Source: Cloeon dipterum (lineage: Eukaryota > Arthropoda > Insecta > Ephemeroptera > Baetidae). Taken from it: a stretch of DNA of 64,000 nt. A program made the translations under genes and the position numbers. Location: positions 34,341,883 through 34,405,882 of the forward strand of contig NC_088789.1 of NCBI RefSeq assembly GCF_949628265.1, read 5' to 3'. The notes beneath the pieces are model-generated. The model had not been told where the DNA came from, did no database searches, and saw nothing but the letters and a program-made list of their open reading frames with translations. How positions within the stretch are numbered: the first letter of the stretch is position 1; every line of letters begins with the position of its first letter. This document shows, piece by piece, positions 4,724 to 61,295 of this stretch.

Positions 4724-7700
4724 ATGGCGGAATACAAGTCACGGAAGAAGAGGTGGATAGCGACACCGAACGTGCTCTTCATTGCATTATGTGTCTTCAT
4801 CTGTATTCCAAGCACGAAAGGAGTTTGCGAAATTGATTTTGATGATACGAGTGTCGACCGCTGGAAATTTCTGATTGGCGCGAGTCGTAAGTTTTATCTT
4901 AAATTAAAGATTTGTGAATAAGTTGTAAAATTCAAACGAAGAGAAATTTAGAAATTTAAGTACTTCACTTGCAATCAAATTTGAAAACAGATTTATTCTC
5001 TGATACGCTTTTGCACTACTCCCACTGCAATAATGGGGCTAAAATTATTTCATTTTGCAGCAAAACAACTTCTCTACGACTTCTGCAAGTACAACGGAAC
5101 AAGTAAAGGCGAACAATGTCATAGTTTTGGAATAAAGCAGACTGTAGATTTTGAAAAAGTGTGTGGTTGCCACATTCAGCAAAATAAAACCATCGAAGGC
5201 TCGTTTAGTTTCGACCTCGACTGCACAAGCAATTTAAGTAATGCCTTTAAATTGATGTAATTTTGCTTTTTATAAATATAATAAACGTTAAATTTTGCTC
5301 TGTTTTACTTTAGGCTACTGCCCTGAGAAACTAACAGTCACCTACAGGCAGGGCCCCAATGCGACGGCTCCACACCAGGTGCCAAGCCGCCGCGGCATAG
5401 GGAAGAATAACAATGAATCCCCCGGGAATCCACCGGGACCGGGAACTGGGGCAGATCCAGATGTCGCAACGAGTGGAATAAATGGCTGGCTGGTGGCTTT
5501 CATAATTTCCTTCGCAGTCAACGTTCTCACGATCTTATGCATATTCAAAGAAAAAGTGTATGACTTTTTGACTGCAATGTGGAACCGACTATCGAACAGG
5601 TGAGTTAATTGATAGCTTATTATTTTAAATTTGCCTCACGCACAAAAGGAATTATTTTATATTTTTAAAGAACAAATATTTATCTAGAAGCTTTGGAAGT
5701 TCAGCCAATTCAGAAGAAATATCGGCTGGTATACTTCTACAGCTGTACAATTTACAACTAATACAGTCATGTGCACATTATTATCATGAAAACAAAAATT
5801 AATGCAGTTATGCTCGATGAAGGTTGGACTCAATTGTTTATTCATACTTTATTTCTTCTGCAGGATAATGGATAGGGGGCAGCAGCTCCCTTCCTTCCAC
5901 CGACACCCAGCACCAGGATTGGCAACTGAGGAGGAGCCTGATATTGATTCAACCGAGACACCCCTGCGGGAACTTACAGGTATTATATTGATAATATATA
6001 TGGACCAAATTGATTCAACGCGCATGAATTTCAGTTAAATTGAAAAAGCCTAGAAATACGCAGACCATTTGACTTTATATCAAATTGTCTTTTCTGTTAG
6101 CAATAGCAGATGATAGTTAAAAATATATTATCGCGATTTCTCCGTTTTGAGTGGTCAGCGATCCGAGTGTTGCGCGCAATCGAAACGAGATCAATTTTGG
6201 CAGTGCAGATTTTTACCACTGGTCTGATTGGACAACAATAAAAACAAATACCACTGCCGGCCAATGAGAAACGTCCTTAGTCCTCTACCACAATGATTCA
6301 AAACGGGGAATTCACCTATTTGGATGGAAGGAAACATTTGTGCTTTTTTTGGTTAAATCGTGCGCTTATTCCTTTTGTAAGTGGTATATTTTTCGAGGAG
6401 TGTAAGGGAAATTGCAGGCCGTCGGATCTTCTAGATTGTTTTTGATTGAGTTTCGTTTTGCCACCAGGGAACACACCCCAGGTGCCAATCCCACGCGGCT
6501 CAACCTCTGCAGCGATTGAAATGGGAGAACCGATAGAGTCACTTGATGTCTCGGAGAGTGACGAGAGAGGTATTTCTCTTTCATGCGTGTTTACTATCAT
6601 GAAAAGATATTTATCTCCGGCATTTAACTGTATTAGAGTTGCGAGGAAATTATGGCTTATTTTCATTTATTCCAGGCGATACACACATTCGACCTGAAGG
6701 GAAAGCAAATCTAGGATTTTTCGAATCTGAAATAGATGGACATATTACCAAACAAAACGCAGACAAGTAATTATCCAGAGCTATGATCTAATTAAAAACT
6801 TATATCGCTCTTTCAAGTGTTTGTGTCTTGGTCATTCACTACGAGTTCAAAAACGATCCTGATTATTTCCGAAAGGGAGACGCCTGTGACGTAGAAAACC
6901 TCAAGACCTCCTTCGGGAAAAACCGGAATTGCAATTTCCGTAATTTGTCGCCAGACAAAAAGTTTTTGCTCCAACTTCTCGGTGACCAAGAAGAGCTTTT
7001 GCAGTTTTTCAACACACAAGGTATTGATCACGTTCAAATTAAAATTCATATCTAACTTGTATGATGACATTTCTGATTCAGGTGACGTGCCTTCTGTTTT
7101 CGTGCTTTTCATTCTATCTCGGGATGAAAACGGGAAAATACTGACTGACCACCTTGACAGGGAAACAAATGATTATGAATATTTCACAACAGATGAGGTC
7201 TTTGACTCTTTACAGAAGCTTAAAAAATTCGATAAATGTCTGAAAATCGTGAATTTTGGGGTGAGTTTCTAACACATTTTTACCTCGATATTAGGAAAAT
7301 TGCGAGATGATTAGACAAATTCTAATATTCTTTGAAATGATTCAGCCGTGTCGGGGGTCATTGGTTGATTCTATGTTCGACGAAAAGAAAAAAAACAAAA
7401 GATATGAAAACAGGAGATCATGCAGAATCACCACTCGCCCAGGAACGCACAACTATATCGTGTTCTATTCGACAGTTGAAAGTAATTTTTTAATGGCAAC
7501 GAATGTTCCTTCGTAATATAAATTTTTTAATAAATTTTACAGCGACAATGGCAAACACTGAAGAAAATGGTTCCTGGTTTGTCCGAAATATCTGCACGTG
7601 TCTGAACTATGCTGATGATGAGTCCTTGTTGAAATTCTTCACCATTGTTCAGAATCGAATGCATCAAGCGTCACGCATTTTCACAACCTTTGAAAAAAAC

Positions 7701-9528
7701 ACTCCACTGGGGCAGACACCAGAGCTCAAAATGTTTACACAGGACAGAAAATTCATAATCTCAAAGTGAGTGTCACAAATTAAACGGATGTTGTCGATAA
7801 AAACAATTCTGGAGGACTCATCATATAAATTTAAAGAATAGCAAACAGTGTAACTGTTTCATGCTACCGTTTATTTTAGGCTGAAAATACCAGCAAGAGC
7901 TATTTCAATCACTGATGGGTATGGTGAAGTGAGCAAAGTCAGAAATGAACGATTTTCTGAATATTTCTCCTGGAAATCGGATGAAGGACGAGATATCAGG
8001 GGTCGCAGAGGTTTCATTTTATCCGCGGTCAAAAGCACACAAGTGCAAGACGTGAAAAGAGCTCTTCGTATGCTAGACTTCGAAATTACAGACTGGAAAC
8101 TGAGTCGACCATCCATGGATATATATTTTAACATGGGTGAGTATCAAAATTGAACAATGAAGGAGTTAAAAATGGATTAATACTGGTTTTACAGTGTCCA
8201 AGTTGGAACCAGACGTGGGCTGCATTATGACCTGCATATTTGGCCCTGTGTGTAAAAACAAACACAAAGAGGTTTGCGTGCGCGTGGAAAACGGGCAAGA
8301 GATTCCAATCTCGAACATCCTACACAGTTTGGTCGGCCCAAAAAACGATAAATTGATCGAGAAGCCGAAAATTCTGTTCGTTGTCAACATGGAAGCACTA
8401 CAAACAGACAGTGTAAGCTCGACTCCAACTGCGATGCATAAGATATATGACATTGATACATATATATTTTAATTTAGTTCTCTGCTGTGGACATAGAAGA
8501 TTTACAAGTCTCTGCTACAAACCACAGTGGTTGGCTTGTCTTGATTTTAAAACACGAAGGTAGGTCCTGAAAGATCGTATTTTATTAAGGTGTACAATGT
8601 AAAAACTTGTTTCACAGATGCATTAAAGGAGCTGATTGAAATCTTTGAAAACATCGGCGAGAATAGCCTGCAAGAACTTCTAGAGCCTCTGCTAACTCGT
8701 GAGTCCAAAAGAGAGGATGTGGTTCTTCTGAATTCAACTATGCAGTATCTCATCAAATTTCCTAATTGGATAAGAGCATTTGTCAAACCAGATTTCAAGT
8801 TCAAAAAGACACAAAACCAACGAGGCCAAATGGATAATTCTGAAAATTCAACGAGAAATCCTCTTGCGGAGAAGATCAATTTTGATGCATTATTGAAAAT
8901 GGCCAATAGAATGTTTGAGGAAAACAAAAATTCGATTGAGAGCCATATTTGGAGTCCACATGTTTCAAGCGATATTGAATCTTCGAAAGAGTTGGATCTC
9001 GTCAGAGACTCAGCAGCGAGAGATAGAACTGACACGAGCATTCTTTGGCTGTTTAATTCAGTTGCTGGTGCAGGCAAATCGACCGTTCTCAAAGAAATGA
9101 GGCACCAACTCACCAATCACGATGGAGGGTTTAAAATACTGCTGATTCCTCTGAAAGAAAATGAATGGTACTTGCTTGAAATGCCTGCATTGAAAGTGGA
9201 TGAAATCGAATTCCTCGCAAAGACAACTTGCAATTCTCATGACGACATCAACAACTGGATTAAGAAGAGAGAAGTCATTGTTTTCCTCGACGGATTTGAT
9301 GAAGTGTGCCCAAATTTCAGAGAAGAAATGATCAACATTTTGATTGCATTAAATAATGCAAGAGTCCCACTCTTCATCGGGACCAGGCCTCACGAAGTGC
9401 ACCACATTCAAGAGAGGATAGAAAACTCGATGGCAGTTGAGATCGAACCACTGGATGAAGAAAAGCAAAATGAGTTGAAGCAGATCGTTGCCGGGGGCGG
9501 ATTAAGGCAACGCACGAGAAATGATTAA
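4724..9528 (+). CDS. Membrane-anchored tandem pseudo-caspase / NACHT receptor (NLR-like), 14 exons
   Basis: Coding exons: 4724-4886, 5061-5237, 5314-5599, 5864-5979, 6468-6569, 6676-6766, 6818-7020, 7082-7260, 7346-7481, 7543-7765, 7880-8136, 8195-8412, 8478-8559, 8618-9528. All junctions are GT-AG, and phases match throughout, giving 1047 residues. Domains in order: hydrophobic signal segment (about 14-33), Cys-rich ectodomain (34-130), Pro/Gly linker, membrane span (about 171-191, GWLVAF...), linker to 311, caspase-like domain 1 (about 312-545), caspase-like domain 2 (about 559-775), NACHT (about 880-1035). Domain 1 keeps Cys441 in PCRG and the small-subunit signature GSWF, but SRD (Arg393) replaces the catalytic SHG. 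Domain 2 has VVNMEA where QACRG belongs. NACHT shows Walker A AGAGKST (894-900) and Walker B FLDGFDEV. The C-terminus stops inside NACHT with an unrelated short tail. Role as an immune or death sensor is inferred from the domain families; the ectodomain is unrecognised. Confidence 0.8.
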
Positions 9529-10354: not shown

Positions 10355-10796
10355 TCAATCGTAATATACTGCAAAGACAGTTGCGACGGCCACAAGCTGT
10401 TTTGTCTGGTAGGTGGCGGTGAGGTGGTTGTCGCGCTCGCAGTCCCACAGCGGCCTGCTCTCGATGCTCACCCCCTGGTTCATTTTGTCCATCGTGTGCA
10501 CCACCACCACGAACTTGTACCTTCCATTCCACCACAAATAAATCACTTTAATTTTTTTAAATTAAATTTTCCAACCTTTGAAAGTCGAATTCGAGGATTT
10601 TCTCCCTGAGTTGTGTGGCGAGGCGCTGGGCGAGCCCTGGCAGGGCGTTCGGAGGAAAAGGTTCGGCGCTGAAGGTTTGCTCGAGCAGCTCGTCGACCAG
10701 CCTTTTGATCTCGCACGGACGGAAAGGCTTCGCCGACTCCAAATGGTACGTGTTGCACGCCTTGTTCTTCAAAGCCATCTTCTGGTATAAATTCAT
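10355..10796 (-). CDS. Tctex-type dynein light chain, copy A
   Basis: Two exons (10796-10576 and 10520-10355) encode 128 residues from the MNLYQK start, or 122 from the internal MALKNK (10778). The second half carries the Tctex1-fold signature: EFDFQRYKFVVVV, a central SRPLWDCERDN segment and an ending of VAVATVFAVYYD. It most resembles the DYNLT2B/TCTEX1D2 branch, light chains of the dynein-2 motor for retrograde transport in cilia; that assignment is from memory of the family. The intron is 55 bases and its donor reads GTTGG rather than the GTAAG of copies B and C, which may weaken splicing. A palindromic X-box lies 156 bases upstream. It is convergent with the receptor gene to its left. 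Confidence 0.75.
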
Positions 10797-10951
10797 TCTA
10801 TTTTTTCTTGTTTTGTTGCCCAGGCGACAAATAATAAAATAACACCCCAATTTTCTCACTAATGAGCGCGAGAAAGACCGAAACAAAGAACTCAAGCTGG
10901 GAAACACACTTGATGATGAGATATAGAGAGTAAATAAAAATAAAATAAATG

Positions 10952-10965
10952 GTTGTCATGACAAC
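10952..10965 (-). promoter_or_regulatory. RFX X-box GTTGTCATGACAAC, Tctex copy A
   Basis: A perfect 14-base palindrome fitting the RFX consensus (GTHNYYATRRNAAC), 156 bases upstream of the copy A start. RFX factors drive ciliary genes in animals, which suits a dynein-2 light chain. The equivalent place in copy B has a different but equally valid X-box. Confidence 0.75.
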
Positions 10966-13847: not shown

Positions 13848-15664
13848 ATGGCGGAATACAAGTCACGGAAGAAGAGGTCGATAGTGACACCGATCATGCT
13901 CTTCATCATTGCAATATGCGTCTTGATCCATATTCCAAGCACGAAAGGAATCACCCAAATTTCCCCCATCATTGAATTTGAAGATCCTTCAGACGACCAC
14001 TGGAAATTTGAGCTTGGCGCTAGTTGTAAGAATCTTATATTACATATTTGTGATTAAATTATGCAATTCTAACCGAACTTTTATAATAATATGTTCAATT
14101 CCTGCTATATATAGTTAATGAAACCAATAAAATTTGCCTAAATATTTTTATATATCATCACCTTTCTCTGATACACCTGCACTGCTACTATAGTAGCTAA
14201 AAATTATTTCATTTTTCGCAGCAAAACAAATTAAATACGACTTCTGCAAGTATAACGCAACAAGTGACGGCGTACAGTGCAAAAATTTCCCAATGCCAGC
14301 GACTATCGATTTTGAAAACGTGTGTAATTGCACCAAACAGCACAATGAAACAAACGAAGGCTCGTTAAGTTTCGACCTCCACTGCAAAAGCAATTTAAGT
14401 AATGCCTTTACATTTATTTTTATAATTATTTCATTTCCTTGTCCCATTCTTTTTTACTCCAGGCTACTGCCCTAAGGAACTGACAGTCACCTACAGGCAG
14501 GGCTTCTTTACGAGCGCACCAACCCAGGTGCCAAGCCGCCGCGGCATAGGGGATGATAACAATAAATCCCCCGGGAATCCACCGGGACCGGGAACTGGGG
14601 TAGATGTCGCAACGAGTGGAATGATCGGCTGGCTGGCTCTCATAATTTCCAACGTTATTTGGTTCATATTATTCTTATTCAAAGAAAAAGTATGGAACCG
14701 ACTATCGAACTGGTGAGTTAATTGATAGCTTAATATTTTAAATTTGCCTCACGCACAAAAGGAATTATTTTATATTTTTAAAGAACAAATATTTATCTAG
14801 AAGCTTTGGAAGTTCAGCCAATTCAGAAGAAATATCGGCTGCGGTACTTCTACAGCTGTACAATTTACAACTAATACAGTCATGTGCCGATTTTATTATC
14901 ATGAAAACAAAAATTAATGCAGTTATGCTCGATGAAGGTCCGACTCAATTGTTTATTCATACTTTATTTTTTCTGCAGGATTATGGGGCAGCTGCCCCCT
15001 TTCTTCCACCGACATCCAGCACCAGGATTGCCAACTGGGGAGGAGCCTGAGACACCCAAGACACCCCTGCTGGGAGTTAGAGGTATTACATTGATATATC
15101 GACCAAATTGTTTCAACGCGCAAGAATTTCAGTTAAATTGAAAAAGCCTAGAAATATGCAGACCATTTGACTTTATATCAAATTATCTTTTCTGTTAACA
15201 ATAGCAGACGATAGTTAAAAATATAGTTCCTTCCTTGATCGCGATTTCTCCGTTTTGAGTGGTCAGCGAGTTTTGCGCGCAATCGAAACGAGATCAATTT
15301 TGGCGGTGCAGATTTTACCACTGGTCTGATTGGACAACAATAAAAACAAACACAACTGCCGACCAATGAGAAACGTCCTTAGTCCTCCACCACAATAATT
15401 CAAAACGGGGAATTTGCCTATTTGGATGGAAGGAAACTAGTGCTTTTTTATATTTTTTGGTTAAAACGTGCGCTTATTCCTTTTGTAAGTGGTATATTTT
15501 TCGAGGAGTGTAAGGGAAATTGCAGGCCGTTGGATCTTCTAGATTGTTTTCGATTGAGTTTCGTTTTGCCACCAGGGAACACACCCCAGGTGCCAATCCC
15601 ACGCGGCTCAACCTCTGCAGGGACTGAAATGGGAGAACCGATAGAGCATTCTTTGGCTGTTTAA
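13848..15664 (+). CDS. Short membrane-anchored paralog, second receptor locus
   Basis: Exons 13848-14025, 14222-14398, 14463-14712, 14979-15082 and 15576-15664 join in phase to give 265 residues. It has the same parts as the 4.7 kb gene as far as its fifth exon: signal segment, Cys-rich ectodomain with conserved DFCKYN and CNC motifs, a linker with QVPSRRGIG, one membrane span and a Pro-rich cytoplasmic piece with TPQVPIPRG. A deletion then joins GATAGAG of exon 5 directly to the NACHT sequence that starts CATTCTTTGGCTG, removing both caspase-like domains. The new frame stops after HSLAV. The predicted product is an anchor without signalling domains. It is likely expressible, but its role is unknown. 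Confidence 0.6.
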
Positions 15665-16256
15665 TTCAGTTGCTGGTGCAGGCAAATCGACCGTTCTCAA
15701 CGAAATGAGGCACCAGCTCACCAGGTTGGATGGAGGGTTTAAAATACTGCTGATTCCTCTGAAAAAATATGAACGGTTCTTACTTGAAATGACTAGAGTG
15801 AAAGTGGATGAAATCGAATTTCTCGCAAAGACAACTTGCAACTCTCGCTTCGACATCAACAAACTGGATTGAGAAGAGAGAAGTCATTGTTTTCCTCGAC
15901 GGATTTGATGAAGTGTGTCTAGATTTTAGAGAAAAAAATTATGGAAATTATGATTGCATTAAATGATGCAAGAGTCCCACTCTTTATCGGGACCAGGCCT
16001 CATGAAGTGCACCACATTCAAGAGAAGATAAAACATTTGACGATAGTTGAGATCGAACCCCTTCTTGATATATGAAGCAAAGCAAATCGAGTTTCTGCGG
16101 ATCGTTGCTGGAAAGAATAAGCAAGAAATCGAACAATTGATGAACATGTTCAGAGACCAAGACATTCTGGGAAACCCACTCCATCTCACCTTGTTGGCAG
16201 AGTACAAATGTGATGGAAACTTGTACGAAATCTTTGACAAAATAGTGCGGTATTAG
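15650..16256 (+). pseudogene. Decayed NACHT fragment downstream of the deletion
   Basis: Matches the NACHT exon of the 4.7 kb gene, including AGAGKST and FLDGFDEV, but in shifting frames: at least two frame changes separate Walker A from the end. It is useful because it runs past the point where the 4.7 kb gene is cut. The segment 16047-16256 encodes a GNPLHLTLLAE stretch typical of the C-terminal part of NACHT modules, then stops. No ankyrin sequence follows. Confidence 0.65.
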
Positions 16257-18595: not shown

Positions 18596-21500
18596 TTAGC
18601 CGTAGAACTTGGGCTGAAAATGAGAATTAAAACAAATTAGAAATCATTTTTTTAGCGAGAAATTAGCTCAAAAATAATTGTAGAACGAAATGTCACGAGT
18701 CGAAGGCCTAAATTGGAATATAATTATTACCGGACAGGTTTTGCGGGACAATTAAAAAAAAAAATTGAGACACTACGCATTTCCCCGCGATGCAATTTCC
18801 AAAATAAGGCTTCCTATCACCTATATAAATCGAATTAACACTTAACTTGATGACCTAGGTCAAGATAAAAATTTATTTCGCTTTCTAAATAATTTTTCGA
18901 ACTTTAAATTTTTAAATTTTTAAAATGTGCTAAAAAGATGTCCCACACGACGTTTGTGAACTTGTCTCAAAATTTCAGAGTAGTGGTCTCTTTAGTTCCG
19001 CTTTAAAATTTGAAAAATAAAATTTTCACCATTTTGCGTTTTTCAAATTTTTGCCACACCAAATCTCGGGATCTAACCATCAGAATTGCAAAAACTACCC
19101 ACCATTAGACACATCTCAACCTCCCCTAAAGACTTAAAAGTGTTAGGGGATGCTCACCCTCTACCCCTAATCACTAAAATACTTTGAAAACTGAGAAAAA
19201 TGCCTTTGAGCACATTTTTAATAAACATAAAATAGCAGGGGGTGAAAGGGGTGGAGGGTTAGCACTCCCTTAACTCTTATGCTAGTCAGGGTAGGTCTAG
19301 ATGTGTCTAACGGTGCTTAATTTTTGCAGTTCTGATGGTTAGAACCCGAGATTTGGAGTTTGCAAAATACGGAAAAATCGAAAAATTCGTGATTTTTGTG
19401 TTTTAAAATATTTAAATTCCAAATCTCTGGTTCTAACCACCAGGATTGTAAAAACTAAGTACCGTTGGATACCTTTGGACCTACCCTGAATACCTGAAAG
19501 TTTCATGGGGGTGCAAACCTTCCCCTTTTAACCCCTGCAAATAGTAAAAATGTACACGAAAGCATTTTCCACAATTTTAAAAATAATTTAGCGATTGGTG
19601 GTGGAGGGTGAGCACCCCCTAAGACCTCTTGATCATTAGGGCAGGTTGAGATGTGCCTAAAGGTGGGTAGTTTTTGCAATTCTGATGGTTAAAACCCGAG
19701 ATTTGGAGTAGCAAAAATTTGCAAAACACGAAAAAGTTGAAAAATTCGTTTTTTTCGAGTTTTCAAGAAAACTTTTCGAAAACTAAAGAGGCCACCGCTT
19801 TGAAATTTTCACATAAGTTCTATAACGACATGGAACATCTTTTAGACGCATTTTCAAAATTTCAAAATCGTTTTAAAAATTTAATTTAAATTAAATCAAT
19901 TACGGTGGCGACATTTAGCATTGATTATAAAATTCGAAAACAAGTTTTAACTGATTTCTTGTGTGTGTTTGTCAATTTTTCCTCTGATCCATGACATTTT
20001 GTCATCATCTTCAACCAAAAACAAAATATAAAAACATAAAAAAAGTTAAAAATGAAAAATATTAAAAAATTATGTTTCATTAAATTTTTATAAAACATAA
20101 ATTACCAGCTCCGTAAGGTACAAAAATTAATCCTGATTTTAACCTTTCTTAAAATCGTATCGAGATAAAAGGAAAACAAATCACCAGTCTACGAGGGGCG
20201 CAAACCACGACGTGGAGGGCAGACAAAATTAGTAGGCAAAGGGACAAAGAAAGAAAGAAAGAAATGGGGAACTCTGTTAGAGCACAGCACGCGTCTGACC
20301 TTTTTCATCATTTCTCATCGTCTCTTACGAACCGAGCAAGAATCTAAACAAACTCGGCTCACAAGTTGTAAGGCCACGTTATCTCCTGGAGAGACGAGAG
20401 GCAGAGTAGGAGAGAGGAAAGAAAGAATTGCCGCCGTTTCTCACCTGTCCGGGATCGTCCTGCGGCCTGCCGTTGTCCTCCTCGCCCGAAGAGTCCTCCT
20501 CGCCGGACGAATCCGCCGAGCCGCTCCTCTCTTTCAGCCCGACTGCAAATTACAATAATTATTTCAGTTTAATTTTTCATTTAAATTCAAGGATTTACGT
20601 TTGTCGGGGGTGCTGCCGCTGCCCGACTTCTGTTTCGAGAGCGTGTCGAAGCAGTTGAGGCACACGCGCAGAGGCTTGGACGACTGGCTCGGCAGCAAAT
20701 ACCGTTTGTTCGAGCACGGACCGCAAACCACCGAACCACACTTGCGGCAGTGGTGCTGAAAAAATAACATGAATTTAGTGAAAATTGGTGTAAATTCGAT
20801 GGACGGTATTTTTCGGCGCCAGCAAAACTGCAAAAATAGTCTAGGGCACGATCTCAGGCCGTGAGCGACCTGAGGAAGGTCCCAGGAAGGGCGAGGATGT
20901 AAATTCGTCGCAGATTGTGCTCGGAATTACTGAAAAAGTATTAAAAATCGGCCTCGGAGCGGATCTCAGGTCGGGGTACCCTGATAAAGGTCATTAGGGT
21001 ACCCCAGGTCGAAGCCCCCGTCCGAGACCTGTCTGATGAGAGGTCGTGGTCGATGATTGGACAAACGGCCGAATTTTAACAAAAATAAAACCATTTCCAG
21101 CGCAAAAGCCGAAAATCAGAAAAAAATTAATTTTAATTTTTCTATGGGCGCCAAAAATCTGAAAATCAGGTTCTAGGTCGACGGCAGCCCTGCGCCTACG
21201 ATGGATTCGGTAAAACCTTCAAAATTTTCTCCGTTAAGAAATTATCGCGAATTTTCGATTTCCAATATTATCCTTTAGGGGAAAGTGTAAAAATCACGTT
21301 TTTCGAACTTTAAAATCTACCTCCTCCTAGAATTTTGATCCGATTGGCTCATATTTGGTCTTAAAATGAGCCCAGATAAATTTCGCGGAAACTGAGAGGC
21401 CATTTTTTCAAAAAATTTGCTTTGGACCAGCGGAAATAATTGAAAATTTCAACTTTTTCCAAAAATTTGGCTGAAAAAATTCGTGAAAATTATAAAATTA

Positions 21501-23680
21501 GTCCGATTTTGGAAAACTGCACACGGCTGGACGCGCCCCACTTAGGGGCATCGATTGGTGCCAGAAACAGCATCATCCTGCCCATAGGACCCCACCTGGA
21601 CCGTCCTGAGTTACAGAAAATATTAAACAACAGTCGAAAATCACCAAAATGAACATAAATCTATTTATATTAATATTTTGAGTTTTCTCAGGGTTAAAAA
21701 TTCTTAACAGGGTGCTCAAGATGTACCCTGAGTACTCTACAGGTTCAAATCAGGGTTCCAATGGCGTGAAAATCTTGCAAATCGAACCAAAACGGCCGTT
21801 CAAGTCACTCGAGGGCTACCCTGACGCCAGGGTTCGATTTCTAACCTGCTCTGATGGTATAATCTGACCTCAGGAAGTATATTCTACCAAAAACTATATT
21901 TAAAAACTAGAAATTTGAACTTTACTGGGGCAAAAATCTATGAAAAAGCGCCAAACTTGATATCAGGCATTTAAATCCTCAGGGTCGGACCCTGAAGGCC
22001 TGAATCAACCATTTTAAGTAAAATCTAGTTCCCCTTGATGAACTGAAGGGAACAGAAAGCAAAAACATTATTTTCCTCAATGTTAGATAATTTTTAGAGC
22101 GCGGAAGAAATGCTCGGAGCAAGTTTTTTTAACTTAAAATGGCTATAACAAAAAAACTGTCCCAATTGCGACCCTGAAAATTGGTGTACTGATGCAGAAT
22201 TTCACAGGCTACAATTTGTTCCTTTGCCCCAAAAAAATTGAAGCAGGGCATCACCCTGAAAAATCGAATTTTCGGAAAAATGGCCTAGACCTTCAACCTA
22301 AATTTTTTTTTGTAAATTTAAAAGTTGTTCAGGACGGAAAACTAGACTTATATCTGAATGTAGTCATGAGTAACTGTCCGATTTTCACATTCGCGGTAAA
22401 AACCCGCCAGGAAATATGCACAAACAGCATATTTGGCGAAAAACGGTGTCAACAATGACGTCACAGACGAGTCAGTGTCAAATTCCGTCACGGACGTGCG
22501 ACTTCTCCAGTAATTTTGTTATTTATTTTGCCTTTTCCACGGCTTCTTAACTCGATTCAAGGCCGGGCGAGACTCACCCTTCTGTTCAGCATGGAAAACT
22601 GGGTTCGTTTGCAGTGCATGCAGACCGAGGCCTCCGAGTCGGGCACCCACACGGCGGCGTGCACCTCCACAGCCTTCTTGCCGCCTGAAAATTAATTTTT
22701 TAAAAGGGAATGTCGAGGAAAATAAATATTTTACTCTTGCGCAACAGGTCCTCGATGCACTTGTTGATGTGGGCCATCCACTCCTGCTTTTCCGTGGCCG
22801 TGGCCGCGTACACAGCGAACGATTTGGTCGCCGTCCTGATCAGCCAGCCGTTCCGGAAATCTAGAATTTTTATTTATTAAAATAGTAATTTAATTTAGAT
22901 AGAAAATTACGAGAATCGTCCTCCAGAGACTCCAGTTTGACCTCTTCCAGGGGAATAATGTGTTGCTTATTGTACTGAAAAATATTATTTTCAACCAAAT
23001 AAATCATTTTTTAATTAATTATACCCTTTTCTTATTAATCACGATGTTTCCGTAGACGAGAATGTCGTTGAAGAGGAAAAACTGTCGTGATTTCGGCTTC
23101 TTTCGGCACATTTTGGTCAGCACGCCTTCTCCGACGAGCACCCGGCCCGGCACGGCCAGCGGCTGAAATGATTTTATAAACAAAATTTCCCTGTTTAAAG
23201 GTCTAATCACCTGTCCAGAACTGCCGAAGCAGCCTTCAACCATGGCGATTCGCCGAGCATTCGCCTCGCTGTTCACTGAAAGAAAATAATAATGAAAAAA
23301 TCGAGTTCAATGCCGAGAGCATAAACAAATAAGTGGGTTAAGCGACGTACTCGTGCACGACCGACCGAAATTCGACTAAACCACAGTGCAAAGACGTCGA
23401 AATTAGGTTTTCCGTGAGGGTGTGAGTCTATGAATCATCGCAACGAGGGAATTAGGCAGCAGCAGCTGTTGAAATAATGCAAAAGGAAAGGGAGACACCC
23501 ATGTAAGGCACGGGACGCGGCCCAATTTCCGCACGCAGCACGGAAGTGCGTCTGACACTCTTTCCGGCCGCCCCTGGGAAACGTGCGGCTGCCGCCGGGA
23601 AAGCCGCGGACGCCCCCCTGCGCGCAGCAAGGGCCCGGTTCGGCCCCAAATTCGAGTCACTCACCTAATCTGTCAACCAT
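18596..23680 (-). CDS. PLEKHF2: Phafin-type PH-FYVE protein (PLEKHF2 / Drosophila rush ortholog)
   Basis: Nine exons, read downward: 23680-23665, 23275-23211, 23162-23025, 22974-22911, 22860-22735, 22684-22578, 20755-20599, 20542-20445 and 18613-18596, giving 262 residues (human PLEKHF2 has 249). The start MVDRL matches the human protein exactly, followed by NSEANARRI. A PH domain spans about 30-135 (RQFFLFNDILVYGNIV). A FYVE zinc finger spans about 150-215 with WVPD, the RRHHCRKCG core and the terminal Cys pairs, binding phosphatidylinositol 3-phosphate on endosomes. An acidic Ser/Glu tail ends in a tiny last exon coding PKFYG. The family acts in early-endosome trafficking. Introns 6 and 8 hold repeats. 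It is divergent from the ribonuclease kappa gene. Confidence 0.93.
18896..19865. mobile_element. Nested foldback element in PLEKHF intron 8
   Basis: Two successive palindromes share a motif. CCAAATCTCGGGATCTAACC near 19065 pairs with GGTTAGAACCCGAGATTTGG near 19335, and a second pair follows at about 19420 and 19690. Outer arms (GGTCTCTTTAGTT near 18985 and AACTAAAGAGGCC near 19780) enclose both. No coding capacity. It looks like a non-autonomous foldback transposon. Confidence 0.5.
20830..22470 (-). repeat. Interspersed repeat family R2, copy in PLEKHF intron 6
   Basis: Shares long blocks, in reverse, with 30945-31575 and more distantly with 52025-53640. A recognisable signpost is the GTCGACCACGACCCCTCAT block, here around 21040 on the minus strand. 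Reading frames are short and not shared between copies, so it is probably non-coding. I could not define its ends or class. Confidence 0.45.
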
Positions 23681-29626: not shown

Positions 29627-33504
<3,878 letters not shown>

Positions 33505-36980: not shown

Positions 36981-37792
36981 CGCCTCTCGAAGCGGTCCGC
37001 AAGCTCGAATTCGGGGTTTCTGGCCGAAACTGGCCGAAAATCGGACTAAATTCGGGTTGCAAGCAGGGCAGTTCGCTGGCCGGTCCTATCTTTTTCCGTG
37101 AGGTAAACAAATTTGAATTTCCCGCCAATATCTGCAGCTGGATACTTACGTTCGCGTCAAGAACGGTATAAACCGGTATTATGAGATTCAAAAATTCTCA
37201 TGGAAAGGATTTTAACGAATATAAATTGAATGAATATAATAAATTTGAAAATAAATTTAATATTTGAAATGAAACAATGGTCCAATTTGCTATGAAAACG
37301 TTAAAATGCACATTTTTGAGTAAAAATAACCGGTATTTTTAGCCTCTGCATATCGGTACCGTCAGTTTTCATTCATCCAATCAAAAAACAGCCCGCCTTT
37401 TGACGATGAGTGGCAAGGCTCCCCTTCATACACTCTACTCTACACTACACTGCTCACTGCTGTTCAATGTTTTTTACTTAGATTTTTTGGCATATTTGCA
37501 TCTGTGCTGGATCGCCGCTTGCTGCATTTCACGAAATCTGATCTTCATGGAGGTGAGTACTTGAGCAGGAATATGGCGTCTTATCGCCTTGATTTTATGC
37601 AATGTTGGGCTGAAATTGGGTAAAAATGTGGAGTAGACACTGATTTTAATATTTCAACCACAATTTAGTAGCCTTATGATAATAGATTTTCGTCCTTTTG
37701 ATAAACTTGACTTTGATTTGCACTCCTGGAAGCTGATTGTGAAATATTCGAATCCCAAGCAAAAGAAAACTAAAAAATTCAAACCCCGCGGT

Positions 37793-37806
37793 GTTGCCAT
37801 GGCAAC
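37793..37806 (+). promoter_or_regulatory. RFX X-box GTTGCCATGGCAAC, Tctex copy B
   Basis: A textbook palindromic RFX X-box, 166 bases upstream of the copy B start. Its sequence differs from the copy A X-box at the inner base pair on each side, yet both keep the palindrome. This fits maintained function rather than simple descent. Between TMEM209 and this site (36981-37792) I see no gene. Confidence 0.8.
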
Positions 37807-37972
37807 CATTTATTTTATTATTATTTACTCTCTCCGTTTCTCTTTCTCATCATCAAGTGTGTTTCCCAGCGTGAGTTCTTTGTTTCGGTATTTCTCGCGC
37901 TCATTGGTGAGAAAATTGGGGTGTTATTATTTTATTATTTGTCGCCTGGGCAACAAAACAAGAAAAAATAGA

Positions 37973-38415
37973 ATGAATTTATACCAGAAGATGGCTTTGA
38001 AGAACAAGGCGTGCAACACGTACCATTTGGAGTCACCGAAGCCTTTCCGTCCGTGCGAGATCAAAAGGCTGGTCGACGAGCTGCTCGAGCAAACCTTCAG
38101 CGCCGAACCTTTTCCTCCGAACGCCCTGCCAGGGCTCGCCCAGCGCCTCGCCACACAACTCAGGGAGAAAATCCTCGAGTTCGACTTTCAAAGGTAAGAA
38201 AATTTTAATTTAAAAAATGGAAGTGATTTATTTTTGCTGGTATCGAAAGGTACAAGTTCGTGGTGGTGGTGCACACGATGGACAAAATGAACCAGGGGGT
38301 GAGCATCGAGAGCCGGCCGCTGTGGGACTGCGAGCGCGACAACCACGTCACCGCCACCTACCAGACAAAACAGCTTGTGGCCGTCGCAACAGTCTTCGCA
38401 GTCTATTATGACTGA
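37973..38415 (+). CDS. Tctex-type dynein light chain, copy B (best preserved)
   Basis: Exons 37973-38193 and 38250-38415 encode 128 residues from MNLYQK, or 122 from MALKNK at 37991. The splice sites are good (AAAG/GTAAG, 56-base intron). The Tctex1 fold is seen in EFDFQRYKFVVVV, SRPLWDCERDNH and the C-terminal VAVATVFAVYYD. Such light chains bind dynein intermediate chains; similarity to DYNLT2B suggests the intraflagellar-transport dynein. Homologous sequence continues upstream through the X-box, so promoter and gene were duplicated together as DNA, not by retroposition. It differs from A and C at LESP versus LESA. AATAAA lies at 38556-38561. It faces the 40.2 kb receptor. Confidence 0.82.
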
Positions 38416-39296: not shown

Positions 39297-40195
39297 CTAA
39301 TGTAAAAGCTTCGAGGGTAATTTATTCCACTTTGCTTTCAAAGAGGGAAACACGTTTATGATCGTGATGACGAAAAGAACGTTGAATGCGGTGGAAATTA
39401 GAAAAGCAGCCAGCAGCCAGCCGTTTGGTCCACTCGTTGCGACATCCGGATCTGGCACCTGGGGTGGAGCCCTTGCAAAGGAGCCCTGCCTGTAGGTGAG
39501 TGTCAGATCCTCAGGGCAGTAGCCTGGAGTAAAACAGAGAAGGTGACAAGGAAATTAAATATTTATAAAAAAGCAAACATTAATGCGAAGCACAGTAAAT
39601 TAAATAAATGTAAAGGCATTACTTAAATTGCTTTTGCAGTTGACGTTGAAACTAAACGAGCCTTCGCTAGTTTCATTATGCTGAATAGTGCAACCACACA
39701 TTTTTTGAAAATCTACAAATACTGGATTTGGGTAACTTTTGTACTGCTCGCCTGTAGTTGTACCGTTGTACTTGCAGAAGTCGTATGTAATTTGTTTTGC
39801 TGCAAAATGAAATAATTTTAAGCTATAGCAGTGCAAGTATTGTGTGTGTGTGTGTTTATATATACAGTTATATCAGAAATATGTATAGGTAATGCTGTAT
39901 AATCTGTTGCAAATTTTATTGGTTTCATTAACCATTAACCGCATATAGCAGGAATTAAACATGCATAAATTTCTAAACTTCACTTGGTTTGAATTCAATT
40001 TTTTTTCATAAATCTTTAATAAAAGCGATACTTACAATTAGCGCCGAACAGAAATTCCCAGTGGTCGACTGATCTATCGTCAAACTCAATGGAAATTCCT
40101 TTCGTGCTTGGAACACAGATCAGGACACATAAAGCGATGACGAGCATCTTCCGTTCCGGCATCCACCTCTTCTTCCGTGACTCGTATTCCGCCAT
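39297..40195 (-). CDS. Short membrane-anchored receptor paralog, third locus
   Basis: Exons, read downward: 40195-40036, 39799-39623 and 39523-39297 give 187 residues. It starts MAEYESRKKRW and has a hydrophobic signal segment ending near PSTKG, a Cys-rich ectodomain (DFCKYNG, CGCTIQHNET) and one membrane span (WLLAAFLISTAFNVLFVI). The GIGDDNN...GPGTG part of the linker is deleted. The frame ends in TAG exactly at the exon 3 donor (TAG/GTAAG), so an exon 4-like sequence near 39040 cannot be added. Caspase and NACHT parts are absent. The product would be an ectodomain with a 21-residue cytoplasmic tail. Function unknown. Confidence 0.6.
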
Positions 40196-41790: not shown

Positions 41791-42288
41791 AATTTCACAG
41801 GCTTAACCTGTTTTGTCGCTGCTTGCGTTTATCCGCCCAGTGGCAAACAGGCAGTGCGTGATTTTTGCCGAGCAGCTTCTCCCTCTCTCGTCGTCTCGTC
41901 CCTATAAATAACTCTAGCCGCGGAAAATGAAATTGCAGCAGCACGCGGTTCGCGACCTCTCATTTTCGCTAACCAAAACTCATCCGCTCCACTTAAAATT
42001 ATTTGTAAATTTCTCAGTCTCTTTAAACAAGCATTTTTTGCCTGTTTAACCCTTAATTGTTTGTCCCAGTTGAGCAAATAAATATTTCTGCTGGCTCACA
42101 CGCAACCTAATACTTCTGCATCCAAACTGTTGGTTCTGATTGAAAAATAAAGTCCAGCCGATTTAATTAGCTATCAACTCTATCACAATATTGGTAGAAT
42201 TAAAATTAAACTAATCAATTCTGAAAATAAGCTTTTTATTTTGGATCTTGAATTACAATGAAAGTATTGAAGATGAGCTGCAATCATT

Positions 42289-42604
42289 TTACTGAGAGTT
42301 AATCGCGGTTTGAAGTTTTCTCAACAGTTGCCTCGCTTTCAAACCTTCTTCTTTTGTAAATCCGTCAATTGTTGTGTTTTCAACAATGTCAAAAGCGCTC
42401 CTACCGTTTTTATCCCGTGCAGAAACATCAACGTTTCTGGTCAACAAAAAATTAACATTTTTCCAGCAACGGTTTTCACAGGCAACGATCAGCGCTGTTT
42501 TCCCATCGAATTCTTTCGCATGTATCAAATCGGCATCGATTTCGTCCAAGAGCCAGGCAGCAAATCACGGTCAGCGGCAAATGCAACTGAAGCCAGATGC
42601 AGCG
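42289..42604 (-). pseudogene. Truncated end of an ankyrin-repeat gene
   Basis: Nearly identical to the last 85-100 codons of the ankyrin gene at 62350-64000, with the same stop and the same ending LQTAINSQ. It contains the repeat core DGKTALIVACENRCW. One base is missing compared with the full copy near 42555, which breaks the frame, and at about 42605 the match stops abruptly where Tctex copy C begins. It is a duplicated gene end that has lost its body. Confidence 0.75.
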
Positions 42605-43015
42605 ACAGGCGTGCAACACGTACCATTTGGAGTCGGCGAAGCCTTTCCGTCCGTGCGAGATCAAAAGGCTGGTCGACGAGCTGCTCGAGCAAACCTTCAG
42701 CGCCGAACCTTTTCCTCCGAACGCCCTGCCAGGGCTCGCCCAGCGCCTCGCCACACAACTCAGGGAGAAAATCCTCGAATTCGACTTTCAAAGGTAAGAA
42801 AATTTAATTTAAAAAAGTGGAAGTGATTTATTTTTGCTGGTATCGAAAGGTACAAGTTCGTAGTGGTGGTGCACACGATGGACAAAATGAACCAGGGGGT
42901 GAGCATCGAGAGCCGGCCGCTGTGGGACTGCGAGCGCGACAACCACGTCACCGCCACCTACCAGACAAAACAGCTTTTGGCCGTCGCGACAGTCTTCGCA
43001 GTCTATTACGATTGA
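42597..43015 (+). CDS. Tctex-type dynein light chain, copy C (chimeric 5' end)
   Basis: Exons 42597-42793 and 42850-43015 would encode 120 residues. From GCGTGCAACACG onward it is nearly identical to copies A and B, with intact GTAAG donor and AG acceptor. The normal first codons, 5' UTR and X-box are missing. Instead the frame opens in antisense ankyrin sequence as MQRQACNTYH. Coding capacity for the Tctex1 fold is therefore complete, but the promoter is not. It may be silent, or driven by whatever lies in the ankyrin 3' end. AATAAA at 43151-43156. It shares LESAKPF and the silent change CTCGAATTC with copy A rather than B. Confidence 0.55.
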
Positions 43016-43646: not shown

Positions 43647-44813
43647 TCAAGTGGTTTTGCTACTGCTAGCAGAAGCAAATAAATTTGGTTCCAGCGGTTT
43701 TCTCCACTTCAGCTTTAGTGATGTGTTCGGCAACCCCCTCTCGGGTGAATCAATATCAGTCTCATGCTCTCTATTTATTGTCCTGCAAAACAAATTCTTG
43801 CATGAATATTCAATTAAAACGCACTCTCATCGACTATACTGCATTAATTTTGGTTTGCACGATACAAATGTGTACATGTCTGTATTATTAATTGCGCTGC
43901 CTTGTGCAGCTTTATAATAATTATATATTACTAGCCGATAATTTTTCGGAATATTCCAAAGTTTTTACAATACTTTTTTTAAAATAAAATAATTTTTTGT
44001 TATATTAGACAATTTTAAATAAATAAGCTATCAACTCACCTGTTCCATTTTTCTTTCAAAAAGTCATAGAAGTTTTCATTCATTAGGCACGCTATGATCG
44101 CGATGACGAACAGAACGTTGAATAAGGTGGAAATGACAAAAGCATCCACCAGCCAGCCGTTTAGTCCACTCGTTGCGACATCTGGATCTGGAGCCCTCGC
44201 ATAGGAGCCCTGCCTGTAGGTGACTGTCAGTTCCTTGGGGCAGTAGCCTGGAGAAAAACAGAAGGGGACAATGAAATGAAATATTCGTATAAAAAATTAT
44301 GCGAAATACATTGCAAATTAAATAAATGTAAAGGCATTACTTAAATTGCTGTTGCAGCCGAGGTCGAAACTAAGCGAGCCATCGTTAGTTTTATCATGCT
44401 GTATGTTGCAATTACACACTTTTTCAAAATCGATAGACGCTTCTGGATGGAAATTTTTGCACTGCATGCCTGTACTTGTTCCGTTGTACTTGCAGAAGTC
44501 GTATGTAATTTGTTTTGCTGCAAAATGAAAATATTTTAAATTAGATTGCAAAGTCCTAACCATATCATGAATTCAATCCTCTTTAAAGTGTCAAACTTCT
44601 CCTGGTTTGAATTGCATAATTTATTCAAGAATCTTTAATATCTAGGTACTTACAATTAGCGCCAAACGCAATTTTCCAGTGGTCGACTGACTGATCTTCA
44701 AACTCAATGGAAATTCCTCTCGTGCTCGGAACATATATCATGATGTATAAAGCAATGAAGAGCACGTTCGGTTCCGGTATCGACCTCCTCTTCCGTGACT
44801 CGTATTTCGCCAT
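43647..44813 (-). CDS. Short membrane-anchored receptor paralog, fourth locus
   Basis: Exons, read downward: 44813-44654, 44517-44341, 44247-44040 and 43782-43647 join in phase to 226 residues. It starts MAKYESRKRRS and has a signal segment, an ectodomain with DFCKYNG and CNCNIQHDKT, and a linker shortened to RAPDPDVATSG. One span follows (GWLVDAFVISTLFNVLFVI), then the membrane-proximal ENFYDFLKEKWNR. The fourth exon follows an acceptor TTTTGCAG and adds TINREHETDIDS and a basic, Ser-rich end. That DIDS piece resembles exon 4 of the 4.7 kb gene. No caspase or NACHT sequence follows. The frame is intact, so it may be a functional short receptor or decoy. Confidence 0.6.
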
Positions 44814-50584: not shown

Positions 50585-51934
50585 TTATAGTCCGCACGCT
50601 GAACGGGAAAGGCTGTCTGATGTGTCGAGTGTCGAGCTTTCTGTCGCCGCCGCCGCCGCCGCTGCTTTTTCTGCTGGTTTTCTCCACTTCAGCTTTTGTG
50701 ATGTGTTCGGCAAGCCACTCTCGGGTGAATCAATATCAGTCTCATGCTCTCTATTTATTGTCCTGCAAAAAAATTCTTGCATGAATATTCAATTAAAACG
50801 CACTCTCATATGCATCGACTATACTGCATTAATTTTGGTTTGCATGATAAAAATGTGTACATGTCTGTATTAATAATTGCGCTGCCTTGTGCAGCTTTAT
50901 AATTATAAATTACTAGCCGATAATTCTTCGGAATATTCCAAAGTTTTTACTATACTTTTTTAAAATAAATTTTTTTTGTTATATTAGGCAATTTAAAATT
51001 AAAATCAGCTATCAACTCACCTGTTCAACTTTTCTTTCAAAAAGTCATAGAAGTTTTCATTGATTAGGCACGCTATGATCGTGATGACGAACAGAACGTT
51101 GAATGCGGTGGAAATTAGAAAAGCCAGCAGCCAGCCGTTTAGTCCACTCGTTGCGACATCCAGATCTGCCCCAGTTCCCTGTACCGGTGGATTCCCGGGG
51201 GATGCATTGTTATCATCCCCTATGCCGCGGCGGCTTGGCACCTGCGGTGGAGCCGTCGCATTGGAGCCCTGCCTGTAGGTGAGTGTCAGTTCCTTAGGGC
51301 AGTAGCCTGGAGTAAAACAGAAGGTGACAAAGAAATTAAATATTCGTATAAAAAATTATACGAAATACATGGCAAATTAAATAAATTTAAAGGCATTACT
51401 TAAATCACTTTTGCAGTTGAGATCGAAAAACGAGCCTTCGTTGGTTTCATCATGCTGAATGGTGCAATTACACACTTTTTCAAAATCAACAGATGCTTGT
51501 AGGTAATTTTTGCACAGTGCGCCTTTACTTGTTGCGTTGTACTTGCAGAAGTCGTATTTAATTTCTTTTGCTGCAAAAAATGAAATAATTTTAAGCTACT
51601 ATAGTAGCAGTGCAGGTGTATCAGAGAAAGGTGATGATATATAATAATCTGTAGACAAATTTTATTGGTTTCCTTAACCGCATATAGCAGGAATTGAACA
51701 TATTATTATAAAAGTTCGGTTAGAATTGCATAATTTAATCACAAATATTTAATACTTACAATTAGAGCCAAACTCCAATATCCAGTGGTCGTCTGAATGA
51801 TCTTGAAATTCAATGCTGGGGGAAATTTGGGTGATTCCTTTCGTGCTTGGAATATGGATCAAGACGCATATTGCAATGAAGAGCACGATCGGTGTCGGCA
51901 TCGACCTCTTCTTTCGTGACTTGTATTCCGCCAT
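50585..51934 (-). CDS. Membrane-anchored receptor paralog, fifth locus, poly-Ala tail
   Basis: Exons, read downward: 51934-51760, 51570-51400, 51306-51021 and 50762-50585 give 269 residues in unbroken phase. It starts MAEYKSRKKRSMPTP and has an ectodomain with DFCKYNA and CNCTIQHDET, the full linker QVPSRRGIGDDNN, one span (WLLAFLISTAFNVLFVITII) and ENFYDFLKEKLNR. Exon 4 adds TINREHETDIDS, then a run of seven alanines and an acidic Ser/Thr tail ending SRSACGL. The last 30 or so residues come from repeat D, so the C-terminus was formed by fusion with unit-associated sequence. It is the most complete of the short paralogs. No caspase or NACHT part follows; function unknown. Confidence 0.65.
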
Positions 51935-60499: not shown

Positions 60500-61295
60500 T
60501 CAAAAAGGCAAGCACTTTTTCATCAGGCACGCTATGGTCGTGATGAAGAACAGAACGGCGAATGCGGAGGAAATTATGAAAGGCACCAGCCAGTCGTTTC
60601 CAGTCGTTGCGACGTCTGGATCTGCCCCAGTTCCCGATCCCGGTGGATTCCCGGTGGATTCAATGTTATTTTCCCCTATGCCGTTGTCGATTGCCACATA
60701 GGGTGGAGCCCTCGCAAAAGAGCCCTGCTTGTAGGTGACTGTCAATTCCTCAGGGCAGCAGCCTGGAGTTAAACACAAGGGGTCAAGGAAATTAATTATT
60801 TATAAAAAAAATTAAAGACATTACTTAATTCGCTTTTGCAGTTGACGTCGACACTAAGCGATCCTTCCTTAGTTTCATTACGCCGAATGATGCAATTACA
60901 CCTTTTTTTAAAATCTAGAAACGCTGGTTTTAGGAAACTTTTGCACTGGAAGCCTCTACTTGTTCCGTTGTACTTGCAGAAGTCGTAATGAAATTCCTTT
61001 GCTGCAAAATTATTTTTTTAATTCGTTTTCAAAAGTTATAAAAGTCCTAATCATATTATTTAAAATTCTGATTTTCTCCTGGTTTGATTTGCGTAATTGT
61101 TATATTCACAAATCTTTAATTAAAGCGATACTTACAATTAGCGCCGAACAGAAATTCCCAGTGGTCGACTGATCTATCGTCAAACTCAATGGAAATTCCT
61201 TTCGTGCTTGGAACACAGATCAGGACACATAAAGCGATGACGAGCATCTTCGGTTCCGATATCCACCTCTTCTTCCGTGACTCGTATTTCACCAT
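60500..61295 (-). CDS. Short membrane-anchored receptor paralog, sixth locus
   Basis: Exons, read downward: 61295-61136, 61001-60825 and 60762-60500 give 199 residues. The start codon context has changed to ATGGTGAAATAC (MVKYESRKKRW). Signal segment, ectodomain (DFCKYNG, CNCIIRRNET), linker with GPGTG-like sequence and one span (WLVPFIISSAFAVLFFITTI) are intact. One extra base after the span, compared with the 44.8 and 51.9 kb copies, changes the tail to KKCLPF and a stop. The product is therefore almost tailless: ectodomain plus membrane span. The first coding exon is nearly identical to that of the 40.2 kb locus. Confidence 0.55.

Follow-up and report, generated by a model that had tools for sequence, protein, structure and literature searches.

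A probable local chimera of membrane-protein exons and a caspase-NACHT block in the mayfly Cloeon dipterum

The window analysed here, 64,000 nucleotides of the ~190 Mb genome of the mayfly Cloeon dipterum (C4:34341883-34405882), carries at positions 4724-9528 of its forward strand a gene whose predicted product runs from a membrane-protein front end through two caspase-like domains into a NACHT NTPase core. An earlier note, made from the letters of the DNA, had read this gene as a new receptor architecture. Our analysis makes it rather likely that the gene is instead a chimera, in which membrane-protein exons 1-4 are joined to exons 5-14 of an NLR-like family at a junction within intron 4. The reading frame is kept across the join, the 3′ end of the NACHT and the ankyrin repeats are lost, and a catalytic His has become Arg. 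Such a gene would probably be in decay or serve as a decoy, and the family behind it is remarkable. The earlier observation is thus partly confirmed, and its interpretation is partly supported.

The 14 exons assembled in the earlier note hold up, as all 13 junctions have GT-AG ends and the exons join in phase to encode 1,047 residues without a stop or frameshift (Table 1). A hydropathy scan of the predicted protein places hydrophobic 19-mers at residues 17-35 (2.17 at residue 17) and 173-191, and five N-glycosylation sequons lie at residues 66, 96, 112, 129 and 147. Hydropathy and sequons suggest a putative ectodomain with seven cysteines and one membrane span, and the proposed membrane-protein front end is borne out as four exons from a family of single-pass proteins. 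Behind it, caspase and NACHT modules follow in series, also as claimed. Residues 1-248 and 559-773 have no Pfam match above the cut-off.

Exons 5-14 are those of a large mayfly family, whose members usually carry ankyrin repeats behind this block. A NACHT query returned 105 genome matches across C1-C5, some of which are pieces of one locus, with counts to be read as lower bounds; further dense NACHT clusters, mostly of long open frames, lie at C2:0.79-4.70 Mb and C4:35.59-36.05 Mb. The exact order caspase, pseudocaspase, NACHT was found in 69 of 97 scanned sequences, the window copy included (68 others), and it is common in two baetid mayflies, Cloeon and Neocloeon. A profile search at E 1e-5 returned 86 proteins, 81 of them from Cloeon, Neocloeon or the same assembly; scoring was confined to the 7,998 candidates with most words in common, so that absence elsewhere is not proven. 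The best of the five outsiders was P0092 (E 6e-15, 32% of the query), and the only named one was a NACHT protein of Anopheles dirus (E 4.4e-6, 9% of the query).

We compared the window gene with 19 related NLR loci, each taken as a 10-kb stretch. Eighteen match the NLR block and have no ectodomain match at E 1e-3; these same 18 share a soluble N-terminal open reading frame (the N-domain). The remaining locus, L009, is a sister chimera that has lost exons 5 to most of 12 by deletion. Intron 4 of the window gene has a partial match in L009 and none in the other 18 fetched loci, and neither the window nor L009+L044 contains the canonical N-domain. The N-domain marks the closest relatives only, and 64 of 84 family proteins have a caspase that starts no more than 60 residues from the N-terminus. 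In both paralogous open reading frames that were inspected, the last exon reads through the NACHT into ankyrin repeats. Measured against this family standard, the window copy has the two caspase-like domains and the NACHT in their usual order and is missing both the soluble N-domain and the C-terminal ankyrins. We reject a conserved receptor design spanning exons 1-14, since 18 of the 19 fetched loci show no ectodomain.

Among seven family proteins examined for hydropathy, five have no 19-mer above 1.6, and the peaks in P0019 and P0034 fall at residues 105 and 897, respectively. A hydrophobic stretch precedes the caspase in P0047, P0051 and P0056, and membrane-anchored forms may therefore not be unique to the window cluster; P0047 and P0056 also carry PF03022 and P0051 carries PF00209, so that these models may be fusions of adjacent genes made by the gene prediction. 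P0038 (LOC135942178, Cloeon dipterum) has a caspase, NACHT and ankyrins followed by two BIR repeats and a sub-cut-off RING match. It could be an IAP fused to an NLR-like protein, or a fusion of gene models.

Exons 1-4 have a different origin, in a family of small single-pass proteins, arranged locally in tandem, whose members in the window end with a short tail. An ectodomain query gave 51 genome matches, 42 of them within C4:34.187-34.403 Mb and nine weak ones on C2 and C5. Four copies in the window consist of the ectodomain and transmembrane (TM) segment without NLR exons, and a fifth is a second, broken chimera in which a deletion sets exon 5 beside the NACHT exon in a different frame. Of the eight ectodomain loci read, four carry the ectodomain-NLR join and four do not, and all lie in one Cloeon cluster.

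The two chimeric copies of the window are close to each other around the join (97% identity in intron 3 and 94% in intron 4) and distant ahead of it (68% in intron 1 and 67% in intron 2). The second copy instead resembles the ectodomain-only copy at 51934 in exon 1 (93%) and intron 1 (94%). As its 5′ part is like the 51934 copy and its 3′ part like the first chimera, 5′ halves have been exchanged between tandem copies. The ectodomain exons at 4724-6467, 13848-15578 and 51020-51934 are a mosaic. Exon 4 (5864-5979, against the copy near 14975-15080) differs between the chimeras at 14 of 104 sites, compared with 37 of 741 in introns 3-4 (Fisher p 0.0006, using 15 of 102 sites for the exon), with dN 0.196 and dS 0.079 over 34 codons. 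Because the second copy is broken elsewhere, this divergence is only a hint of diversifying selection.

The first of the two caspase-like domains matches Peptidase_C14 (Pfam PF00656) at residues 313-548 (E 6e-14), and its best PDB sequence match is caspase-3 (E 0.001). Its catalytic sites in the window protein are Arg393, where relatives have His, and Cys441. We compared these sites across 91 aligned segments from 96 database proteins plus the window model, a set in which certain proteins are represented by two segments and one species by two assemblies. His and Cys are both kept in 76 of the 80 rows that span both sites, and the four exceptions are the window copy (Arg, Cys), P0005 (His, Ser), P0035 (His, Asn) and P0038 (Tyr, Phe). 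Judged by these residues, the first domain is of the catalytic type in the family, and that of the window copy is a member of the caspase fold and not a competent caspase; the window protein is probably without protease function. The same count ruled out a family in which both caspase folds are ancestrally dead. In P0005 (LOC135943092) the catalytic Cys is Ser and the p20 Arg is Lys. The p10 segment of caspases usually contains an S-W-R stretch. This stretch is absent from the family rows inspected for it, which makes Asp specificity, and with it cleavage after Asp by the family caspases, doubtful even in relatives. A genome-wide Pfam C14 search returned 36 matches, the strongest outside the family loci, and a search with a relative's caspase piece returned 272 matches, with 150 of 258 candidates scored.

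The second domain (559-773) is very probably a pseudocaspase, that is, a caspase fold without the catalytic dyad. A profile of 13 family sequences of this domain, compared with PDB, matched an ancestral caspase-3/6/7 chain best (E 3.9e-6), and caspases were the first 54 of the best 60 among 68 matched chains. Four of the 13 members match PF00656 on their own (best E 6.8e-6), while the domain of the window copy alone has no Pfam match, and its single-sequence search gave four caspase-8 sequences at E 1.1-1.2 only. No Cys or His is conserved at the catalytic columns in any of the 13. A whole-family profile compared with PDB was discarded, as ankyrins swamped the result.

The NACHT matches Pfam at residues 894-1030 (E 6e-7) and has a Walker A motif (VAGAGKST) and a Walker B motif (VIVFLDGFDE). 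The window frame departs from homology near 9491 and stops shortly after, where paralogues run on past the NACHT core with DILGNPLYL..., and the region after the NTPase core and all ankyrins are missing. A Pfam scan of the window copy and six relatives, four of which have NACHT and ankyrins, found no leucine-rich repeat (LRR). Proteins of this family may thus work like NLRs without being bona fide NLRs, which combine NACHT and LRR.

Support for the splice junctions is uneven along the gene. The nine junctions from E5/E6 to E13/E14 are all gap-free against P0002, and gap-free junctions number eight of nine against P0007, seven against each of P0003, P0004 and P0005, six against P0032 and five against P0010. 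E1/E2 and E2/E3 are gap-free against all four NCBI ectodomain proteins, and E3/E4 against none of the four. For E3/E4 and the chimeric E4/E5, the compared proteins offer the window copy no outside support. The donor of exon 4 likewise has none, but it is kept by the second chimeric copy. Two NCBI models elsewhere in the cluster contain comparable joins: LOC135943872 (P0030) splices exons 3-4, with the TM segment, to exons 12-14, and LOC135943873 (P0041) runs from exons 1-4 straight into exon 6, where it ends. NCBIfam gave no match for P0041, P0040 or P0001, and remote NTPase matches only for P0021. A sigma-70 promoter scan was uninformative on this insect DNA.

Several observations weigh against this explanation. 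The strongest against the fused gene is the public annotation of the window locus, where the NCBI model omits exons 1-8. Its protein, P0001, starts MIQPCRG; the codons for MIQ are the final nine bases of intron 8, and E8/E9 is left unused. P0030 skips E1-E2 and uses another first exon. The window model P0040 (LOC135943537 isoform X3; minus strand, exons 54049-53744, 51946-51755 and 39038-38937) combines a first exon at ~54.0 kb with ectodomain exons of the ~51.9 kb copy and the tail exon of the ~39.0 kb copy, passing over the 44 kb copy. Either this is an annotation error across tandem copies or it reflects real cross-copy splicing, and because P0040 mixes copies, joins in the NCBI models of this cluster are weak proof, which lowered our confidence in the chimera a little. 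The fetched NLR loci extend only ~4.5 kb upstream of exon 5. A local hhalign of the second against the first domain gave a probability of 0.7% over three columns, no better than eight shuffled controls at 0.1-1.7%, and two steps of the mechanism considered below, NACHT oligomerization and the cis-activation of the caspase, come from analogy. Lastly, the block has dN/dS below 1, mid-ranked values in the first caspase and linker, and an open frame, and these features speak against long decay.

In another reading no fusion protein exists, and the locus holds an ectodomain-TM gene that ends within exon 4 or directly behind it and a separate, 5′-truncated NLR remnant starting from ~7337. We hold this quite possible, at a little under an even chance. 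It would explain why P0001 begins in intron 8, it fits the four ectodomain loci without NLR exons, and the exon 4 donor (AG/GTATTA) is far from the usual consensus, GTRAGT, with read-through from exon 4 stopping at 6038. However, a search with exons 1-6 that covered proteins of ~172-546 aa returned four ectodomain proteins, none of them identical to the window gene or its exons 1-4 (best identity 61%). Exons 5-8 are undamaged, keep their phase and show no gap against P0002, which would not be required of a dead 5′ part, and two sister loci are modelled as joined, with the cross-copy caveat of P0040.

The chimera may also be a pseudogene, which fused, then lost the NACHT end and ankyrins, and is now drifting; we give this nearly the same chance as two separate units. 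The truncation and the lost catalytic His are in keeping with decay, and all three further chimeric copies that were read carry deletions or frameshifts. The ratio of nonsynonymous to synonymous substitutions (dN/dS) on the window branch, compared with the 18 canonical loci (L009 left out), is highest of 19 in two of four segments: the second caspase-like domain (0.66; the next highest is also 0.66) and the NACHT (0.60; others at or below 0.41). The first caspase (0.40) ranks 11 and the linker (0.57) ranks 7, with an overall value of 0.54 (rank 2). The values were obtained by counting over codons mapped with tblastn and filtered for local identity, so that their absolute size is biased and it is the ranking that is useful. 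Values below 1, an NCBI protein model at the locus and 1,047 codons without interruption do not sit well with drift, and the pattern fits relaxed constraint after the fusion rather than neutrality throughout.

That the gene encodes a working surface or lumenal receptor, in which a ligand would cluster the ectodomain so that cytoplasmic NACHT and caspase folds signal, seems unlikely. Its signal-like segment, sequons, cysteines and single predicted span would suit such a protein, and the exon 4 divergence agrees with it as a hint, but the catalytic His, the second half of the NACHT and the ankyrins are gone, NCBI has no model of the fusion at the locus, and the second copy is itself broken. The architecture described in the earlier note is not a standard receptor design; the 18 ectodomain-free loci with their soluble N-terminal open reading frame speak for a local chimera in its place. 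The note's proposal of oligomerization through NACHT cannot be taken for granted in a copy that has lost the ankyrins and whatever follows the NTPase core. Its two pseudo-caspases describe the window copy, with Arg393 and a dead second fold, and not a family whose first caspase keeps both residues; dead folds that recruit caspases are accordingly not needed. Among related proteins the domain order is common in two mayflies; the ectodomain join was seen at four of eight loci read, in the one Cloeon cluster. An assembly artefact joining unrelated loci is very improbable: repeated tandem copies make misassembly conceivable, but the same join recurs in one adjacent copy and two copies ~90-100 kb away with different deletions, on a contig of 36.4 Mb.

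Returning to the chimera, domain anatomy and residue conservation suggest how the family and this offshoot might act, with every step a matter of inference. In intact members, ankyrin repeats would sense a cytosolic target, the NACHT would switch and oligomerize, and the resulting clustering would activate the built-in caspase, with the adjoining pseudocaspase as its possible cis partner, as c-FLIP is for caspase-8. The window copy could at most set a protease-dead, switch-less caspase/NACHT fragment at the inner face of the membrane. Such a fragment could be a decoy or a dominant inhibitor of its full-length relatives, and decay is about as likely.

Several known systems offer points of comparison. 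NOD1, NLRP3 and NLRC4 are NLR, or NACHT-clade STAND, receptors, and the mayfly family resembles this group in its NACHT with Walker A and B motifs, C-terminal repeat array and N-terminal effector region. It differs in having ankyrin instead of LRR repeats and a caspase itself in place of CARD, PYD or DD, and the window copy is without repeats. In Apaf-1, CED-4 and Dark a STAND switch controls caspases, which are recruited in trans by a CARD; the mayfly family would share such control, but its switch is a NACHT and not an NB-ARC. The join has a likeness in the NCBI models of LOC135943872 and LOC135943873, in the same cluster; both are heavily deleted, P0030 keeping part of the second caspase-like domain and the NACHT, and P0041 exon 6 only. 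Shrimp LvNLRC is a further receptor of the NLR group (PMC12370184). In caspase-8 and c-FLIP(L) (PMC7586951), a catalytic-type caspase stands beside a caspase fold without catalytic residues; the mayfly proteins hold both folds in one chain with a NACHT, and the functional parallel would be an inferred one. Amphioxus TNFR-caspase and LRR-caspase hybrids also combine receptor-type and caspase domains in one protein; they have no NACHT and keep QACXG, in contrast to the mayfly chimera with its NACHT and broken dyad (PMC2575513). Among the papers listed from open-licence, preprint-free literature, no title or opening of an abstract describes the mayfly caspase-NACHT family, in line with the earlier suggestion that the arrangement is new for arthropods, and the words NACHT, caspase, ankyrin and NLR do not occur in the main text of the Cloeon genome paper.

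Table 1 Features of the window gene and of related copies in the window (positions within the window).
Feature	Position	Strand	Remarks
Exon 1	4724-4886	+	Basic N-terminus and hydrophobic signal-like segment; donor GTAAGT
Exon 2	5061-5237	+	Cys-rich ectodomain
Exon 3	5314-5599	+	End of ectodomain, Pro/Gly linker, membrane span (residues 173-191)
Exon 4	5864-5979	+	Juxtamembrane tail; 32-47% alignment with the four ectodomain-only copies
Intron 4	5980-6467	+	Contains the chimeric junction; 94% identity to second window copy
Exons 5 (6468-6569) and 6 (6676-6766)	6468-6766	+	Linker of the NLR-like family
Exons 7-10 (6818-7020, 7082-7260, 7346-7481, 7543-7765)	6818-7765	+	Caspase (C14) domain; Arg393, Cys441
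Exons 11-13 (7880-8136, 8195-8412, 8478-8559)	7880-8559	+	Second caspase-like domain without catalytic residues, continuing into exon 14
Exon 14	8618-9528	+	Helical linker and NACHT NTPase core; stop 9526-9528
NCBI LOC135943874 coding sequence (P0001, 611 aa)	7337-9528	+	Opens with nine bases of intron 8
Second, broken chimeric copy	13848-16253	+	Ectodomain exons, exons 4-5, deletion
Ectodomain-only copy	39303-40195	-	Tail exon 39038-38937 used by NCBI model P0040
Ectodomain-only copy	44039-44813	-	By eye same sequence as P0043
Ectodomain-only copy	51020-51934	-	First exons used by NCBI model P0040
Ectodomain-only copy (P0042)	60515-61295	-	
Ankyrin-repeat end of neighbouring NACHT-ANK gene	62350-63999	-	Last 60 residues of P0081

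Elsewhere in the window, 42289-42564 (minus strand) nearly repeats the ankyrin tail of the NACHT-ANK gene in 62350-63999. A short gene or fragment, presumably Tctex1-like, occurs in three copies, at 10557-10955 (minus), 37637-38197 (plus) and 42277-42807 (plus). We take the exons at 30332-33467 (plus) to resemble a PP2A scaffold subunit and those at 20564-23306 (minus) a Phafin-type FYVE/PH gene.

In its widest form, which we put forward as a long shot, baetid mayflies would have evolved and hugely expanded a one-protein inflammasome made of caspase, pseudocaspase partner, NACHT switch and ankyrin sensor. Exon shuffling with a fast-evolving array of surface proteins would have budded off a membrane-anchored, protease-dead form, acting either as a co-receptor at the surface or to restrain the cytosolic forms. 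The chimera shows how a caspase-NACHT block can move onto a membrane protein. With 105 NACHT matches in the genome and both catalytic residues kept in nearly all family caspases compared, inflammasome-like death becomes directly testable in insects.

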